Assembly: GCF_014230085.1 (NCBI RefSeq) | Contig: NZ_JACHVB010000052.1 | Coordinates: 62,001-126,000 of the forward strand | From: Ruficoccus amylovorans | GTDB taxonomy: Bacteria; Verrucomicrobiota; Verrucomicrobiia; Opitutales; Cerasicoccaceae | Length of the DNA stretch: 64,000 nt | Reading direction: 5' to 3' | Part shown: in pieces, positions 17,299 to 52,896 of the stretch | Position numbering within the stretch: the first letter of the stretch is position 1 | Layout: each line of letters begins with the position of its first letter | The notes under the pieces: model-generated | Told to the model about the DNA's origin: nothing | Database searches by the model: none | Seen by the model: the letters and a program-made list of their open reading frames with translations, nothing else | Made by a program: the position numbers and the translations under genes

Positions 17299-17328
17299 TT
17301 TTTATGCGAATTTGCATGATCTGTGACC

Positions 17329-18165
17329 ATGCGCCTACACCTCGAAGACAACTCGGAGGACGTCATTGGCAAGGCACAAAGCGGTCTTGGTCTCACGGAC
17401 GAACAGCTAGCCGAAAAATCCGGCTTGGGCAAGGAGCGTATTGACGCTTTGAAAAATGGTGAAGCCGATGAAGACGCCCTGAGGGCCGTCGCCCCCGTGC
17501 TGCACCTCAACGCCAACGCCCTGATCGATCTGGCGCAGGGCAAATACCAGCCCGCCGACGTCGAACTGGAGGGGCTGCTGGCCTTCTCGACTCCCTACCC
17601 CGAGGGCTACGAAGGGATGCGCGTCAACGCCTACCTCGCCTACGATCCGCAATCCCGCGACGCCGTGGTCTTCGACAGCGGGGCCGACGCCTCCCCCATT
17701 CTGGAGGCCGTCCGCGAGCACGGCCTGTCCGTCAAGCTGATCCTCCTCACGCACGCGCATGGGGATCACATCAAGGCCCTGCCCCGCCTGCAAAAAGAAA
17801 CCGGCAACCCGCCGACCTACATTTCGTGCAACGAACCCTCGGTCAAAGGTGCCCAGTCAATTGAGGAAGGGGCCAGCTTCAACCTGTCGTCCCTTTCCAT
17901 TCTTGCGCTGAATACCTCCGGCCACTCCCCCGGCGGCATGACTTTTGTCGTCCAGGGCTTGAAAAAGACTGTCGCCATCGTCGGCGACTCGCTCTTCGCC
18001 GGTTCGGCCGGTGGCGCAGCCAACGCCTGGGAGCAGGCTCTGCGCAACAACCACGAAAAGATTCTCACCCTGCCGCCGGAGACTATCCTCTGCCCCGGCC
18101 ACGGCCCCATGACCACCGTAGCCGAGGAGCGCGTGCACAACCCGTTCTTCGCCCCCGCACAGTGA
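17329..18165 (+). CDS. Metallo-beta-lactamase-fold hydrolase with N-terminal HTH-like segment
   Basis: A 278-residue protein. Residues ~12-70 (GLTDEQLAEKSGLGKERIDA, then NGEADEDALRAVAPVLHL) resemble an XRE-type helix-turn-helix. Residues ~82-275 form a metallo-beta-lactamase domain with the THAHGDH zinc motif (H142, H144, D146, H147), a later GHSPGG histidine, the IVGDSLF Asp and the terminal PGHGP histidine. This is the glyoxalase II/hydroxyacylglutathione hydrolase type of MBL fold. The ATG at 17329 is chosen over a GTG six bases upstream. The HTH-MBL fusion suggests either a DNA-bound enzyme or an oligomerisation helix bundle. Substrate is unknown. Confidence 0.8.
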   Translation: MRLHLEDNSEDVIGKAQSGLGLTDEQLAEKSGLGKERIDALKNGEADEDALRAVAPVLHLNANALIDLAQGKYQPADVELEGLLAFSTPYPEGYEGMRVNAYLAYDPQSRDAVVFDSGADASPILEAVREHGLSVKLILLTHAHGDHIKALPRLQKETGNPPTYISCNEPSVKGAQSIEEGASFNLSSLSILALNTSGHSPGGMTFVVQGLKKTVAIVGDSLFAGSAGGAANAWEQALRNNHEKILTLPPETILCPGHGPMTTVAEERVHNPFFAPAQ

Positions 18166-18295: not shown

Positions 18296-19519
18296 ATGCC
18301 TAGAAAAAAGACCCGTAATACCAAACCGTCCGTCGCCTTCGTTGGCGTCGGGCGCATGGGCGCCAACATGGCGCGACGACTGGCCGACTGCGGCTACACC
18401 GTGAACGCCGTTTACGATGTCAACCGCTCCGGCGCCGAGGCCCTCGCCGCCGAACTCGGCTGCGCCGCCCCCCGGAAGCTGAGCGAAGTCACCGCCTCTG
18501 CCGACATCATCGTGACCGTCGTCACCAACGATGCCGCCATGCGGAAGATCTTCACCGCCAAGCGCGACAACCTGCTCGAAAAAGCCGCGGGAAAGATTTT
18601 TATCAACTGCGCCACGGTCACACCCGACCTTCACCGCCAGATCCACACACTCGCACGCCGCCGCCGGGCCAACTCGCTGGAGGGCTGCATGGCCTCGTCG
18701 ATCACCCAGGCGCGCGATGGCACGCTCTACCTCATGATCGGTGGCGAAAAGAAGATTTTTTCCAAAGTCGAACCCCTGCTCGCCGATCTGAGCAAGGAAC
18801 TCATCTATGTCGGCGCGGCAGGCAAGGCCGCCGAAGTCAAGGCCTTGGTCAACATGGTCATGAACATCAACACCGCCGGCCTGGCCGAAGGTCTCGGCCT
18901 GGGCAAGGCGCTCGGCCTCGACCTCAAGGTGCTCTGCCAGGTCTTCTCGCAGACCGGCGCGAACAGCCGCGTGCTTGAGACCGACGCTGAGGACATGATC
19001 AAGCGCGACCACGACTGCTTCTTCTCAGCCGCGCATGCGGCCAAGGACTCCGGCATCGCGCTCAAGCTCGGAAGCAAAAAACGTCTCAAACTCCCCGTCG
19101 CCACCGCCACCAAGGCGCAATACGACCTCATGGTGAAAAACGGCCTGGGTGAGCTGGACAAATCCGGCGTAGCCGAGCTCACCTTCCCCGGTCGCCAGGG
19201 CGCGAAAAAGAAAACCGTCCGCAAGGCCGCCAAAAAGACCGCTCGCAAGGCAGTAGCCAAGAAGGCCGCCAAGCGTACCGCCAGAAAAGCGACGACCGAT
19301 AAAACCGCCGCCAAGAAGGCCGTGAGCAAAAAGACTGCGACCAAGAAAACAGCCCGCAAGGCGGCGAAGAAAACCGTCGCAAAAAAAGCCACTAAGCGTG
19401 TGGCCAAGAAGGCAACGGCCCGCAAAGTCGCCCGCAAGGCAGCCGTAAAAAAAACGACCGCGAAAAAAGTCGCCCGTAAGACAACCAGAAAGGCGACCAA
19501 ACGCACCCGCAAGGGCTGA
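18296..19519 (+). CDS. Beta-hydroxyacid dehydrogenase fused to a histone-like basic tail
   Basis: A 407-residue protein in two parts. Residues 10-300 are a 6-phosphogluconate/3-hydroxyisobutyrate dehydrogenase-type enzyme: VAFVGVGRMGANMARRLA (dinucleotide fold), DGTLYLMIGG, and GAAGKAAEVKALVN with the catalytic Lys (K182) and Asn (N186) present. Residues 303-407 are a low-complexity Lys/Ala/Thr/Arg tail of repeated KKTARKA- and AKKA-type units, just like histone H1/HctB-type DNA-binding proteins. The start is the ATG at 18296. The TTG start at 18263 adds an unlikely hydrophobic stretch. The substrate-binding block reads GCMASSITQARDG rather than the usual S-G-G. A rho-independent terminator follows. 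The enzyme may be tethered to the nucleoid. Confidence 0.88.
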   Translation: MPRKKTRNTKPSVAFVGVGRMGANMARRLADCGYTVNAVYDVNRSGAEALAAELGCAAPRKLSEVTASADIIVTVVTNDAAMRKIFTAKRDNLLEKAAGKIFINCATVTPDLHRQIHTLARRRRANSLEGCMASSITQARDGTLYLMIGGEKKIFSKVEPLLADLSKELIYVGAAGKAAEVKALVNMVMNINTAGLAEGLGLGKALGLDLKVLCQVFSQTGANSRVLETDAEDMIKRDHDCFFSAAHAAKDSGIALKLGSKKRLKLPVATATKAQYDLMVKNGLGELDKSGVAELTFPGRQGAKKKTVRKAAKKTARKAVAKKAAKRTARKATTDKTAAKKAVSKKTATKKTARKAAKKTVAKKATKRVAKKATARKVARKAAVKKTTAKKVARKTTRKATKRTRKG

Positions 19520-19647: not shown

Positions 19648-20481
19648 TCAGGAGATTTCGATCACAAGCGCGGTCAGGTTGTCGCGTCCGGAGTTGAACA
19701 TCGCCTCGTCGATCAGGCGGCGGGAGATGCTCCGCTCGTCCTTGGCCGAGCGCTCGAACACGCTCTGAATGCCACGTGTAGACAGCCCGTCGGTGATCCC
19801 GTCGGTGGTCAGGACAAAGCGGTCGCCCGGTTCGTATTCGACGGAGCCGATCTGCGGATCAATGTTGCCGACGTTTCCGCCGAGCACTTGTTGCAGCCCG
19901 CTCTTGGCCGGGTGGAAGCGGGCCTGCGACTCGGTAATCTGCCCGGTGCGCACCAGCCAGCCCACGTGCGTGTGGTCGTGGCTGATCTGCCGAAGCTCCC
20001 CCCCGCCGGGCCAGTAGTAGATACGGCTGTCGCCGATGTGGGCGAAGTTCATTTTCCCGGGAGCGAACCAGCACAGGCTCAGCGTCGCCCCCATGCCGCT
20101 GCACTCGGGGTAGGAGTGGCTCATACGGCTCATCTCGGTGTGAATTTCCTCAAAAAGGTGCTCCAGCCACTCTCCTGCCCCGCGGCGCATTCCCATCGCC
20201 CCGAGCCAGAAACTGCGCGGAAGCGTATGCGAGATGCGGTCGATGGCGATGCGGCTGGCGTATTCCCCGGCATTGGCCCCGCCCATGCCGTCGCTGACCG
20301 CGAAAATAAAGTCGCTGCCCTCCATCGGGGAAGTGCCGTCCTTGCCCAGCAGGCGCATTTCCTCTGCATCGACGGTCAGGGCCAGGAATGCGTCCTCGTT
20401 GTTTTTGCGGAACCGGCCCGGATGGGTCATGCCGGACCAGGTGACTTTTATTGGTGGCGCGGGATCGTCGTTCTCGCTCAT
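19648..20481 (-). CDS. PP2C-family serine/threonine phosphatase
   Basis: A 277-residue PPM/PP2C phosphatase. The ordered motifs are NNEDAF (metal), AVSDGMGGANAGEYAS (two metal Asp/Gly), GMGATLSL, HIGDSRIYYW, LTTDGITDGL and GRDNLTALV with the final metal Asp-Asn. All Mn/Mg-binding aspartates appear intact, so it should dephosphorylate Ser/Thr residues in the cytoplasm. The gene ends at 19648 (ISSE-like tail LVIEIS). It starts only 9 bases after the kinase-like gene at 20491-20943, so the two form a kinase/phosphatase operon transcribed divergently from glnII. Confidence 0.92.
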   Translation of the reverse strand: MSENDDPAPPIKVTWSGMTHPGRFRKNNEDAFLALTVDAEEMRLLGKDGTSPMEGSDFIFAVSDGMGGANAGEYASRIAIDRISHTLPRSFWLGAMGMRRGAGEWLEHLFEEIHTEMSRMSHSYPECSGMGATLSLCWFAPGKMNFAHIGDSRIYYWPGGGELRQISHDHTHVGWLVRTGQITESQARFHPAKSGLQQVLGGNVGNIDPQIGSVEYEPGDRFVLTTDGITDGLSTRGIQSVFERSAKDERSISRRLIDEAMFNSGRDNLTALVIEIS

Positions 20482-20490
20482 GAATCAATC

Positions 20491-20943
20491 TTATTGCTTG
20501 TTTTCCCAGCCCGTCTCGCGGCGGTTTTCCTCGATTTCGCCCAGGGTCAGCCCCTCGCCGGTCTCCAGAATTGTGGCGAATTCGAAATCAATGACATTGA
20601 ACCGGCCCGTCCAATCGTTATACGTGATGTTCCGGGGGAACGCGTCGTCGTGACGGACGCCGTATTTCTCCTCCAGTTCCTTGAACAGAGCGTCGGCCTT
20701 ATCCCGACCGATCTTGTCCACGACTTTCCCGCAGTTGGTGGTGACGATGTAGCCGTCTCCCTCCTCCGGGTCGGCGTGAAGCAGTTTCGGGACAAAATCA
20801 CAGCCTTTTTCCTCCAGATAACGCAGGACGCGAACCTCATTTTCGAACCGTTGGCGGGCCATCGGACCACGATAACGCTTGTGAACTTTCCCATCCCATG
20901 CGATTCTGACGCTCGCCTGCTTCGTATCCTTAATATCGTGCAT
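20491..20943 (-). CDS. Compact protein-kinase-like protein
   Basis: A 150-residue protein, far shorter than usual kinases. It retains kinase-like residues: a Lys in VHKRY (K22), Glu in RFENEVRVL, a catalytic-loop block HDDAFPRN (H98, D100, N105) and a metal-binding IDFEF (D119) in place of DFG. This matches the minimal lipopolysaccharide-kinase/RIO/ABC1-like fold (the N-lobe is reduced to about 45 residues). The start is the ATG at 20941-20943. The longer frame to 21075 overlaps glnII and its promoter. It is 9 bases upstream of the PP2C phosphatase, so a reversible-phosphorylation pair is likely. The substrate is unknown, and catalytic activity is unproven. Confidence 0.7.
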   Translation of the reverse strand: MHDIKDTKQASVRIAWDGKVHKRYRGPMARQRFENEVRVLRYLEEKGCDFVPKLLHADPEEGDGYIVTTNCGKVVDKIGRDKADALFKELEEKYGVRHDDAFPRNITYNDWTGRFNVIDFEFATILETGEGLTLGEIEENRRETGWENKQ

Positions 20944-20968
20944 GAAATTTTTTACCAAATTGACAAAC

Positions 20969-20984
20969 TGGCACCGCTTCTGCT
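20969..20984 (+). promoter_or_regulatory. Predicted sigma-54 promoter of glnII
   Basis: TGGCAC at 20969-20974 and CTGCT at 20980-20984 give the diagnostic GG-N10-GC spacing of a -24/-12 sigma-54 promoter. Transcription would begin near 20995, about 75 bases ahead of glnII. A sigma-70-like TTGACA at 20960-20965 overlaps it. Confidence 0.75.
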
Positions 20985-21068
20985 GAAAAGAATTCTGACC
21001 CTGACTTATCAGAGAAAGGGGCGGCAAGGCTGTCCCGGTCAACAACTGCTTCGAACACATAACAACCC

Positions 21069-22082
21069 ATGACAAAATACAAGCTAGAATACATTTGGCT
21101 CGACGGCTACCAGCCCGTGCCGAATCTCCGTGGAAAGACTCGCATTGCCAGCGAAGCGCCCAAGAGCGTTGAAGACTGCCCTGAGTGGGGTTTTGACGGA
21201 AGTTCGACGCAGCAGGCCGAAGGGCACAGCTCCGACTGTATCCTCAAGCCGGTCGCCCTCTATCCCGATGCCGGCCGTCCCAACGGCTTCATCGTGATGT
21301 GCGAAGTCATGCTCCCGGACGGCACCCCGCATCCCTCCAACATGCGCGCCACCATCATCGACGATGAAAACGCATGGTTCGGTCTTGAGCAGGAGTACTT
21401 CCTTTTCCGCGACGGTCGCCCTCTGGGCTGGCCCAAGGACGGTGGTTTCCCGAGCCCGCAGGGCCCGTACTACACCGGCGTCGGCTACCAGAATGTCGGT
21501 GACATCGCCCGTAAAATCGTGGACGAACACCTCGACCTCTGCCTCGCCGCCGGTATCAACCACGAAGGCATCAACGCTGAAGTGGCCAAGGGCCAGTGGG
21601 AATTCCAGGTCTTCGCCAAGGGCTCCAAGAAGTGCGCTGACGACATCTGGGTCGCCCGCTACCTGCTCTCCCGCCTGTGCGAAAAGTACTGCATCGACGT
21701 GGAATGGCACTGCAAGCCCTTCAAGGGCGACTGGAACGGCTCCGGCATGCACTGCAACTTCTCGACCGAGTACCTGCGCACCGTCGGCGGCAAGGAATAC
21801 TTCCTCAAGCTCATGGACGCCTTCGAGAAGAACAAGGACGAGCACATCGCCGCTTACGGCCCGGACAACCACCTGCGTCTGACCGGCCTGCACGAAACCC
21901 AGTCGATCGACAAGTTCTCCTGGGGTGTGGCCGACCGTGGCGCTTCCATCCGCGTCCCCCACAGCTTCGTCAAGAACGACTACAAAGGCTACCTGGAAGA
22001 CCGTCGTCCGAACTCGCAGGGCGATCCCTACCGGATCTGCTCCCGCGTGCTTCAGACCATCGCGGAAGTCCCCACCGAGTAA
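21069..22082 (+). CDS. glnII: Type II (eukaryote-like) glutamine synthetase
   Basis: A 337-residue glutamine synthetase, the short GSII form rather than the ~470-residue GSI. Diagnostic blocks are WGFDGSSTQQAEGHSSDC near the N-terminus, NAWFGLEQEYFLF, GVGYQNVGDIARKIVDEHL, NHEGINAEVAKGQWEFQV, GSGMHCNFS, GPDNHLRLTGLHET and RGASIRVPHSF, including metal-binding Glu/His and ammonium-site residues. It makes glutamine from glutamate, ammonia and ATP in the cytoplasm. Expression is probably nitrogen-responsive through the sigma-54 site at 20969-20984. A strong terminator follows at 22138. Confidence 0.96.
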   Translation: MTKYKLEYIWLDGYQPVPNLRGKTRIASEAPKSVEDCPEWGFDGSSTQQAEGHSSDCILKPVALYPDAGRPNGFIVMCEVMLPDGTPHPSNMRATIIDDENAWFGLEQEYFLFRDGRPLGWPKDGGFPSPQGPYYTGVGYQNVGDIARKIVDEHLDLCLAAGINHEGINAEVAKGQWEFQVFAKGSKKCADDIWVARYLLSRLCEKYCIDVEWHCKPFKGDWNGSGMHCNFSTEYLRTVGGKEYFLKLMDAFEKNKDEHIAAYGPDNHLRLTGLHETQSIDKFSWGVADRGASIRVPHSFVKNDYKGYLEDRRPNSQGDPYRICSRVLQTIAEVPTE

Positions 22083-51147: not shown

Positions 51148-52896
51148 CTAATGATGTCCGACGGCCTGCTTCTGGTAAAGGTGCTTGTAGTGCGGACAGC
51201 GCTCCATTAGCTCGGCGTGGGAGCCGTAGTCGATGATCCGCCCCTGCTCGAACACGATGATCTTGCGCACGTTCTTGATCGTGCTGAAACGGTGCGCAAT
51301 GATGAGCACCGTCCGGTCGTCCATCAGTTTGTCGAGCGCCTTCTGGATAAAGGCTTCGCTGTTGCTGTCGAGGGCGCTGGTGGCCTCGTCGAGGATGATG
51401 ATGGGGGGATTTTTCAGGAACACTCGCGCGATCGCGATCCGCTGCTTCTGACCGCCCGAAAGCTTGTCCCCACGCTCGCCGACAATGGTGTCGTACCCGG
51501 CCTCCAGCGACATAATGAAGTCGTGGGCATAGGCGCTGCGGGTCGCCTCGTACACCTCCTCCGGGGTGGCGTCGGGCTTGGCGATGAGGATGTTATTGTA
51601 AACGGTGTCGTTGAAGAGGACGGGGTACTGCGGGACCGAGCCGATATTGGCGGCGTAGTCGCGCGAGGCGATGTCGTGCAGCGGGATGCCGTCGGCCTTG
51701 ATCACGCCCGAAACCGGGTCGTAGAGGCGCATGGAAAGCTTGGCGAAGGTGCTCTTGCCCGCGCCGCTCTCACCGACCAGCGCGCAGCCGGTCCCGGCCG
51801 GGATAACGATATTGGCATCCATCAGCACCGGCTTGTCCTTGTAGGCGAAGTTCACGCCTTCGAAGCGGATTTCGCCCTTCAGGCGGTCGATGGGGACGGG
51901 ATTTTCGGGCTCGGGTACGGTTGACTCGTATTCCAGGATCTCGTTGATCCGCTCGAACATCGGGGTCGCCTTGATCAGGTCGGAGCACATCCGCATGATG
52001 CGCTTGATCGGGTCGATGGTGAAGTACAGCGCGATGCCGACCGCCGAGAAGGTCGGGAAGTCGATATTCGTCTCGTAGGCGTACACAAAGGTCACCGCCA
52101 CCATGGTCGCCGCAAGCATTTCCATGATCGGCTGCTGCATGAGCTCGTACTTGGCGATCTTCATGCAGAAGTTCTGAAACGAGCGGTTGAGGTCGCGGAA
52201 AAGCCCCTTCTGGGCCTCCTGCATGTTAAAGAGCCGGACTTCGTGGGCGGCGTCGAGGTTCTCGTTAAAAAGCTGGGCCACACGGCTCAATTCGCCCTGC
52301 GAGCGGGCCATGTACATCTTCAGCTTCTTGCGCATCATCTGCACAGGCAGGATGCAGAACGGCACCGCCGCGATGAAGACCAGCAGAAAGACGATCTCGC
52401 CGTTGGTGAACGAGAGGTAGATCAGGAACGACACCGCGCCGATCACCTGCAAGGGTTGGCGGAAGATTTCCGAGGAAAACGAGGTCAGGATGGCCTGAAT
52501 GGCGTTCGTATCGTTGTTGAGCCGCACGATCAGGTCGCCCGTCGTGTACTTGTCGAAAAACGCGATCGGGCTGTCCTGGATTTTCGAAAAAATGTCCTGC
52601 TTGATGTTTCTCAGGACCTCCAGAGAGACCTTGGTCGTGAAATACCCGCTGACATAACCGGCGATGGCCCTCACCCCGAAGATCAACGGCAGCAGCAGCG
52701 CCACCCCGATGACGTAATTGGCCGAGTACTCGTGCTCACCGGCTCGCTCCATGAATATCTTGCGCAGCACCTTGTCGAAAATGACCGGCATCCCGAAACC
52801 GCTGGACGCGCCGAAGATAATCCCGGCCCCGACCGCGATAATCAGCAGGTGCAGGCTTTGCCGAATGTATTTGAAATAGCGCTTGTACTTGTTCAT
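51148..52896 (-). CDS. MsbA-like ABC exporter (fused membrane and ATPase domains)
   Basis: A 582-residue half-transporter. Six-helix membrane domain (first helix LLIIAVGAGIIFGASSGFG) followed from about residue 330 by an ABC ATPase with GESGAGKSTFAKL (Walker A), LSGGQKQRIAIARVF (signature), IIILDEATSALDS (Walker B) and IAHRFSTI (switch His). Type IV ABC exporters of this kind flip lipid A, lipid-linked sugars or peptides. The adjacent glycosyltransferase, epimerase and methyltransferase favour a glycolipid. Function as a dimer. Confidence 0.92.
   Translation of the reverse strand: MNKYKRYFKYIRQSLHLLIIAVGAGIIFGASSGFGMPVIFDKVLRKIFMERAGEHEYSANYVIGVALLLPLIFGVRAIAGYVSGYFTTKVSLEVLRNIKQDIFSKIQDSPIAFFDKYTTGDLIVRLNNDTNAIQAILTSFSSEIFRQPLQVIGAVSFLIYLSFTNGEIVFLLVFIAAVPFCILPVQMMRKKLKMYMARSQGELSRVAQLFNENLDAAHEVRLFNMQEAQKGLFRDLNRSFQNFCMKIAKYELMQQPIMEMLAATMVAVTFVYAYETNIDFPTFSAVGIALYFTIDPIKRIMRMCSDLIKATPMFERINEILEYESTVPEPENPVPIDRLKGEIRFEGVNFAYKDKPVLMDANIVIPAGTGCALVGESGAGKSTFAKLSMRLYDPVSGVIKADGIPLHDIASRDYAANIGSVPQYPVLFNDTVYNNILIAKPDATPEEVYEATRSAYAHDFIMSLEAGYDTIVGERGDKLSGGQKQRIAIARVFLKNPPIIILDEATSALDSNSEAFIQKALDKLMDDRTVLIIAHRFSTIKNVRKIIVFEQGRIIDYGSHAELMERCPHYKHLYQKQAVGHH

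Follow-up and report, generated by a model that had tools for sequence, protein, structure and literature searches.

NPAC (GLYR1) is a eukaryotic protein in which a dehydrogenase fold (2uyy) is joined to a nucleic-acid-binding part. Its dehydrogenase domain, in which Met takes the place of the Lys that is catalytic in beta-hydroxyacid dehydrogenases, forms a tetramer and serves as an inert scaffold, and chromatin is bound via N-terminally located PWWP and AT-hook modules (PMC13144531, in part). In Pseudomonas, the proteins PhaF and AlgP combine a helical N-terminal part with an H1-like Lys/Ala tail of KPAA-type repeats. These tails are known or presumed to bind DNA and contribute to the placing of granules, the H1-like AlgP being associated with polyphosphate granules and PhaF being located on PHA granules (PMC9239181, in part). 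More generally, lysine-rich low-complexity regions are enriched among DNA-binding proteins (PMC6821194, in part). Hc2/HctB, a histone H1-like protein, is a stand-alone nucleoprotein of Lys/Ala-rich composition. Judged by PDB titles and names, mt-SAF21, which has the dehydrogenase fold too, occurs in a nucleic-acid context, namely in structures of trypanosome mitoribosome assembly (6sga, 7pua, 9hny).

The gene described here lies in a 64,000-nucleotide stretch of DNA from Ruficoccus amylovorans (the window). Like NPAC, its product joins the dehydrogenase fold to a putative nucleic-acid-binding part, but the catalytic Lys (K182) is kept, and the joined part is an H1-like C-terminal tail. With PhaF and AlgP the window protein shares an H1-like tail on another domain; this domain, however, is a dehydrogenase, and KPAA-type repeats were not found in the tail, which is devoid of proline. 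The Lys/Ala-rich composition recalls Hc2/HctB, but the match to the curated family (NCBIfam NF038052) is weak, with 23.6 bits against a cut-off of 135, and the stretch is the tail of an enzyme. Finally, the two-domain fold, the glycine-rich loop and the active-site Lys and Asn are those of 3-hydroxyisobutyrate (HIBADH), tartronate-semialdehyde and gamma-hydroxybutyrate dehydrogenases (structural Z about 33-37), from which the protein differs in its substrate loop, its polycationic tail and its sub-cut-off NCBIfam scores. A known kind of tail is found on a known kind of enzyme, in an unusual combination; no earlier description of such a fusion was found among the titles and abstract beginnings listed from an open-licence library. 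The protein is probably an active beta-hydroxyacid dehydrogenase, dependent on NAD(H), that its polycationic tail tethers to a polyanion, with nucleoid DNA as the first candidate.

The gene and its dehydrogenase core

The gene and the features of its product are located in the window as follows.

18296-19519, + strand: dehydrogenase-like gene with polycationic C-terminal tail (ATG start, 407 aa)
18332-18814, + strand: Rossmann domain NAD_binding_2, residues 13-173 (Pfam; G17, G19, G22 and D41 invariant in 40 of 40 sequences)
18680-18703, + strand: substrate-loop motif EGCMASSI, residues 129-136 (M132, A133, S134, S135 and I136 invariant in 40 of 40)
18821-19180, + strand: C-terminal helical domain NAD_binding_11, residues 176-295 (Pfam; helices in the predicted model)
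18839-18853, + strand: predicted catalytic K182 and N186 (KALVN; 105 of 106 alignment rows, one gap)
19202-19516, + strand: Lys/Ala/Thr/Arg tail, residues 303-407, net charge +47 (composition; same-frame tails in congeners)

The gene forms a single intact frame with a stop-free translation of 407 residues. Its start codon is backed by two congeners (L003 and L004) that share an MP[RK]KK start, the N-termini reading MPRKKTRNTKP in the window protein and MPKKKSRKTKP and MPKKKSRNTKP in the congeners.

The original prediction had ascribed to the protein the dinucleotide fold and the catalytic Lys and Asn of beta-hydroxyacid dehydrogenases, and both were confirmed. In Pfam the protein belongs to NAD_binding_2 (E 1.3e-28, 100.5 bits, cut-off 21) as well as to NAD_binding_11 (E 3e-19, 69.9 bits, cut-off 30). 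G17, G19, G22, D41, K182 and N186, the last of which we take to be the catalytic Asn, are invariant in all 40 rows of alignment A1. Many further core positions are invariant too, and invariance across the core is as expected of a live active site, so that enzyme activity is predicted. Of the 106 rows of a larger alignment, 105 have D41, K182 and N186, and the remaining row, which may be a relative that was read short (L070), has a gap; A133, S134 and S135 likewise occur in 105 of these rows. An Asp that ends the second strand of the Rossmann fold favours NAD over NADP, and D41, which is found at this place, suggests that NAD is preferred.

The substrate loop is not of the DAPVSGG type, as residues 129-136 read EGCMASSI where 3obb has DAPVSGG. 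Scores also stay far from the NCBIfam equivalog cut-offs for HIBADH (TIGR01692, 129.9 against 291.6) and tartronate semialdehyde reductase (TIGR01505, 134.6 against 340.75). On account of these two differences the core is, judged by its sequence, a distinct beta-hydroxyacid dehydrogenase subfamily, a family found in Verrucomicrobiota. The unusual motif also weakens the prediction of activity, since 3obb is the best-matching solved relative.

In a sequence comparison with the PDB, enzymes of the 3-hydroxyisobutyrate dehydrogenase type rank first (3obb, 118 bits), and N-PAC (2uyy) occupies the 19th row of the list with 73 bits. An AlphaFold2 model built with 40 family sequences had a mean pLDDT of 82.7 overall and a pTM of 0.70. 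The core was modelled with confidence (pLDDT >90 in 22 of the 29 ten-residue blocks between residues 11 and 300). The tail was modelled as one long helix at low confidence (pLDDT 41-73 over 10-residue blocks), and because of the composition of the tail this predicted helix is not reliable as structure. Top structural matches of the model were the gamma-hydroxybutyrate dehydrogenases 3pdu (Z 37.5) and 3pef (Z 37.4), Arabidopsis GLYR1 (3doj, Z 37.4), tartronate semialdehyde reductase (1vpd, Z 36.7) and N-PAC (2uyy, Z 36.6), matches that differ by a Z of 1 or less being counted as tied. Foldseek recovered the same enzyme group. The superposition on chain A of 2uyy (2uyy_A) has an rmsd of 1.5 over 286 aligned residues with 23% identity.

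The parallel with NPAC/GLYR1 that had been drawn originally holds at the level of the fold, where N-PAC comes close to the best match (Z 36.6 against 37.5), and ends there, the catalytic Lys being kept. Pfam searches up to E 0.01 gave no match to the PWWP domain in the window protein. By analogy, it may work a little like NPAC, with a dehydrogenase fold placed at DNA, but it is not a member of the NPAC group. A closer correspondence would make it the redox- or metabolite-linked chromatin factor that had been raised originally, with a dehydrogenase that responds to redox state or to a metabolite by altering DNA packaging or transcription via the tail. The shared fold, the histone-like tail and the SET-domain and ribbon-helix-helix (RHH) proteins with similar tails that the genome also encodes (see below) would suit such a regulator; the retained Lys, unlike in NPAC, and the lack of a listed PWWP match do not, and we consider it very improbable.

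The tail and its distribution among relatives

The tail (residues 303-407) consists of 36 Lys, 28 Ala, 18 Thr, 12 Arg and 8 Val plus one residue each of Asp, Ser and Gly, and the spacing of Lys and Arg favours 4 to 5 and 9 residues. At 105 residues it is the long Lys/Ala-rich low-complexity tail that characterizes H1-like tailed proteins, and its original likening to bacterial H1-type proteins was correct. Exact 15-bp repeats do not occur inside the tail DNA, Tandem Repeats Finder listed no array in the tail, and the Lys codons are mixed (16 AAA and 20 AAG); the low complexity therefore resides at the protein level.

A frameshift, which had been named beforehand as an outcome that would undo the prediction, or a misassembly is practically excluded as the source of the tail. 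Lys-rich ends can indeed trouble assemblies: the contig of one congener (G003, in which L005 and L032 are one sequence) stops four residues past residue 300, and another relative (L045) reads N within its Lys-rich end. Yet two further assemblies, from congeners with cores 83% identical to that of the window protein, carry Lys/Arg-rich tails that are read in this same frame, and the tail DNA has stops in each of its two other forward frames.

Relatives were compared in two sets. The first comprised 105 distinct cores of more than 55% identity, made up of the best 80 of 571 relatives (not a random choice) plus further relatives. Of these cores, 24 extended past residue 300 with a Lys/Arg-rich end of 10 or more residues, and five of the 24 ends reached 30 or more residues (107, 92, 42, 36 and 36). 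The rest had a shorter end with at least four Lys/Arg (7 cores) or none (70, with L070 counted here), were cut (2; L005 and L027) or read N after the core (2; L044 and L045). L001 is a duplicate of the window, and L028-L031 are distant or without match. On a tree of 103 rows, from which L070 was left out, the fewest changes were 8 for any Lys-rich end and 9 for ends of at least 10 residues, so that Lys-rich ends came and went repeatedly. The N run of L044 need not hide a tail, since its nearest rows in the tree have none. Tail lengths may be under-counted in draft genomes, as is suggested by the contig of G003, which breaks off four residues into the tail region, and by the N runs of L044 and L045.

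The second set was drawn evenly from the order and carries less bias than the first. Matches were found in 106 of 273 genomes, and 106 loci were read from 105 genomes, with G146 and four secondary matches left out; L002-L027 are common to both sets. Among the 104 readable loci, 96 had no Lys-rich end, two had at least four Lys/Arg in fewer than 10 residues, two had an end of 10-29 residues and four an end of at least 30. Three of the last four belong to the genus of the window, with 107, 92 and 42 residues after residue 300 that include 48, 43 and 21 Lys/Arg, respectively, and the fourth (L195, 38 residues) belongs to another family of the order. The pairing of domains, sought across Verrucomicrobiota relatives as the original prediction had proposed, is hence not phylum-wide: most of the orthologs read lack it, and the tail is a variable add-on, not a family trait. 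As 96 of the 104 loci do without a Lys-rich end, a tether is not needed for the function of the core.

In the fourth member of the genus (G003, the source of L032), core residue 13 is preceded by 90 residues, where the window protein has 12, and 39 of the 90 are Lys or Arg. Its ATG sits 19 bases past the stop of the upstream hydrolase gene, and its C-terminus is cut, the contig ending four residues after residue 300. Short Lys-rich N-termini are also present in several relatives with Lys-rich C-termini, e.g., L036, L038 and L071. In view of these N-terminal arms, the charge seems, as far as sequences can tell, to matter more than which end carries it. That charge is kept across the genus while the arm changes in length (42, 92 and 107 residues) and position (N-terminal in G003) speaks for a tether.

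The main true rival is a Lys/Ala-rich extension that arose on the terminus of a soluble enzyme and does little, being tolerated as a harmless, disordered and charged end. It would account for a tail that varies from 42 to 107 residues among congeners with 83% identical cores, for ends that appear and vanish at least 8 to 9 times across the family, for the many relatives without any, and for the abundance of related Lys-rich stretches in the genomes of the family. Such a near-neutral tail is less easily reconciled with the strong positive charge kept in all four genus members despite its differing position, or with mixed codons and the absence of a DNA repeat that could drive the tail. We regard it as unlikely, though deserving serious weight.

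In the core tree, the ten rows of the family to which the window belongs do not come together, the genus (L002-L005) being apart from L010, L014, L015, L019, L020 and L024. A single clade for this family was not rejected (AU p 0.085), which bears on horizontal transfer into the genus.

Lys-rich stretches elsewhere in the genome and family

When the tail was used as a protein query, it found only itself at E 0.01 or better, and a PF07382 search of the genome did not report it. Both query types were judged unsuited to low complexity, and Lys-codon patterns were therefore used. One pattern cannot catch every Lys/Arg-rich tail, and the first does not match that of the window. A KKxxxKK codon pattern does, yet the reversed control is likewise high (41+10 against 25+9), notably for scattered matches, for which reason only clusters of matches were read.

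Dense clusters of KKxxxKK matches lie at four places in the genome of the window (G000): in the dehydrogenase gene, in the genes for a SET-domain and an RHH protein, and in that for a small protein whose arm is N-terminal (two KKxxxKK matches and four of the first pattern). The remaining matches are scattered single or overlapping ones. In 464 kb, composed of the window and 20 hand-picked 20-kb stretches, a Lys-rich stretch was found in one of 1890 stop-to-stop frames of at least 100 residues, namely the dehydrogenase gene, and in none of those in the 400 kb outside the window; the three other known tailed genes fell outside these stretches. A proteome-wide drift towards Lys-rich tails is not supported, because clusters are confined to four places by this pattern and the 400 kb sampled held none, and the same figures count against a near-neutral tail.

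The first pattern gave 10 to 47 matches per genome in all 10 family genomes (reversed control, 0 to 1), so that H1-like stretches are not special to the genome of the window. The raw material for Lys-rich arms is regional, and such arms arise easily in this family.

The SET-domain protein (L113:982-1794; G000:C12, about 187910-188720) carries a Lys-rich C-terminal tail. Homologs with at least 63% identity are present in all 10 family genomes searched (L182-L191), each with a Lys-rich end of about 20 to 85 residues. Such a protein, in which a lysine methyltransferase-type domain bears an H1-like tail, could act on itself or on the other tails. The RHH protein (L123:1018-1638; G000:C14, about 52100-52720) has 206 residues, with an RHH_1 match (26.8 bits, cut-off 20.5) followed by a Lys/Ala-rich tail of ~90 residues, and is a candidate nucleoid protein of this genome. 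The small protein (L126:1242-1637, minus strand; G000:C34) combines its Lys-rich N-terminal arm with a conserved C-terminal domain that has a GWGNxLYxRGEGG-like motif; Pfam gave no match for this copy. Similar proteins are encoded in L114-L117, L119 and L120, i.e., in seven family genomes in all. In G003, a long Lys-rich N-terminal arm was also seen on a DksA/TraR zinc-finger protein (L118:1498-2466).

These proteins invite a more far-reaching scheme, in which a live dehydrogenase, kept on the nucleoid by its histone-like tail, would couple DNA packaging or transcription to NAD(H) or to a beta-hydroxyacid/semialdehyde, the SET and RHH proteins with their tails forming a small chromatin-like set with it and the tails perhaps being methylated. 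We hold this scheme to be very improbable. Methylation of the tails is less favoured because a chlamydial SET protein is reported to methylate host histones and not the chlamydial Hc1/Hc2 (PMC6426960, in part). A SWIB search prompted by the same source was empty and says nothing, as its control was empty as well.

Proposed role of the tail and neighbouring genes

The preferred reading, a dehydrogenase with a polycationic tether, can be put as follows, with activity, NAD preference, oligomeric state, polyanion binding, the polyanion concerned and any benefit all being putative. In one genus, an active NAD(H)-dependent core would have gained a polycationic arm that is long and either disordered or helix-prone. 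As relatives with the beta-hydroxyacid dehydrogenase fold form dimers or tetramers, an oligomer would expose between two and four such arms, each with a charge of about +47. Their binding to polyanions would not depend on sequence, nucleoid DNA being the most likely partner and RNA or polyphosphate possible ones, and the arms would act as a tether or retention tag rather than as a catalytic part. The nearest tested precedents are the tails of AlgP and PhaF (PMC9239181, in part). Besides the unusual substrate motif and the many loci that do without a Lys-rich end, the ease with which Lys-rich arms arise in this family and the failure of both the NCBIfam score and the PF07382 search to place the tail in the curated Hc2 family count against this reading.

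Overlapping with this reading is one in which the tail anchors the enzyme to a polyanion other than DNA, i.e., to RNA or ribosomes, polyphosphate or storage granules. The granule-bound AlgP (polyphosphate) and PhaF (PHA) offer precedents (PMC9239181, in part), as does the presence of the same fold, as mt-SAF21, in the mitoribosome assembly structures named above. Against these stand the seven window proteins scanned, which include no granule or ribosome gene, and the RHH (DNA-binding) or SET domains of two other Lys-tailed proteins of the genome. Such an anchor is judged to be quite unlikely.

If the tail does hold a live enzyme on DNA, a bacterial oxidoreductase would have been brought to the nucleoid with its catalysis intact, a state reached independently of eukaryotic NPAC, in which catalysis was lost. 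Should the tail prove near-neutral, it would show how easily ordinary enzymes acquire H1-like arms. The natural series of 42, 92 and 107 residues after residue 300, an N-terminal arm and tail-less relatives makes the question directly testable.

The dehydrogenase gene is flanked in the window by the following genes.

17323-18165, + strand: MBL-fold hydrolase, glyoxalase II-like, upstream (Lactamase_B, 60 bits; probable operon partner)
19648-20481, - strand: Stp1-like PP2C phosphatase, downstream (177 bits, cut-off 230)
20491-21075, - strand: small kinase-like protein, downstream (APH, 25.8 bits, cut-off 23.2; Kdo below cut-off)
21069-22082, + strand: GlnII-type glutamine synthetase, downstream (382 bits, cut-off 500)

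The MBL hydrolase scores 77.6 bits with GSH_gloB (NCBIfam), below the cut-off of 200.8, and has a weak N-terminal HTH match, also below cut-off. The neighbourhood of orthologous loci yields no clue to the substrate. The most recurrent neighbours, with shadow frames opposite the dehydrogenase ignored, are the MBL hydrolase and a DUF5069-type gene. Of 99 orthologous loci that have 1 kb or more of sequence ahead of the gene, 29 carry an MBL homolog upstream in the same orientation, at a distance of up to 300 bases from where the core match starts in 27 of these 29, and all four genomes of the genus have it. A possible and chemically sensible two-step pathway would run from a thioester/glyoxalase-type hydrolase to a hydroxyacid dehydrogenase. 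The second neighbour, in which DUF5069 was identified in a scanned member (L107:7019-7516, minus strand), is found near the dehydrogenase gene in 23 of 81 loci, on either side and either strand.
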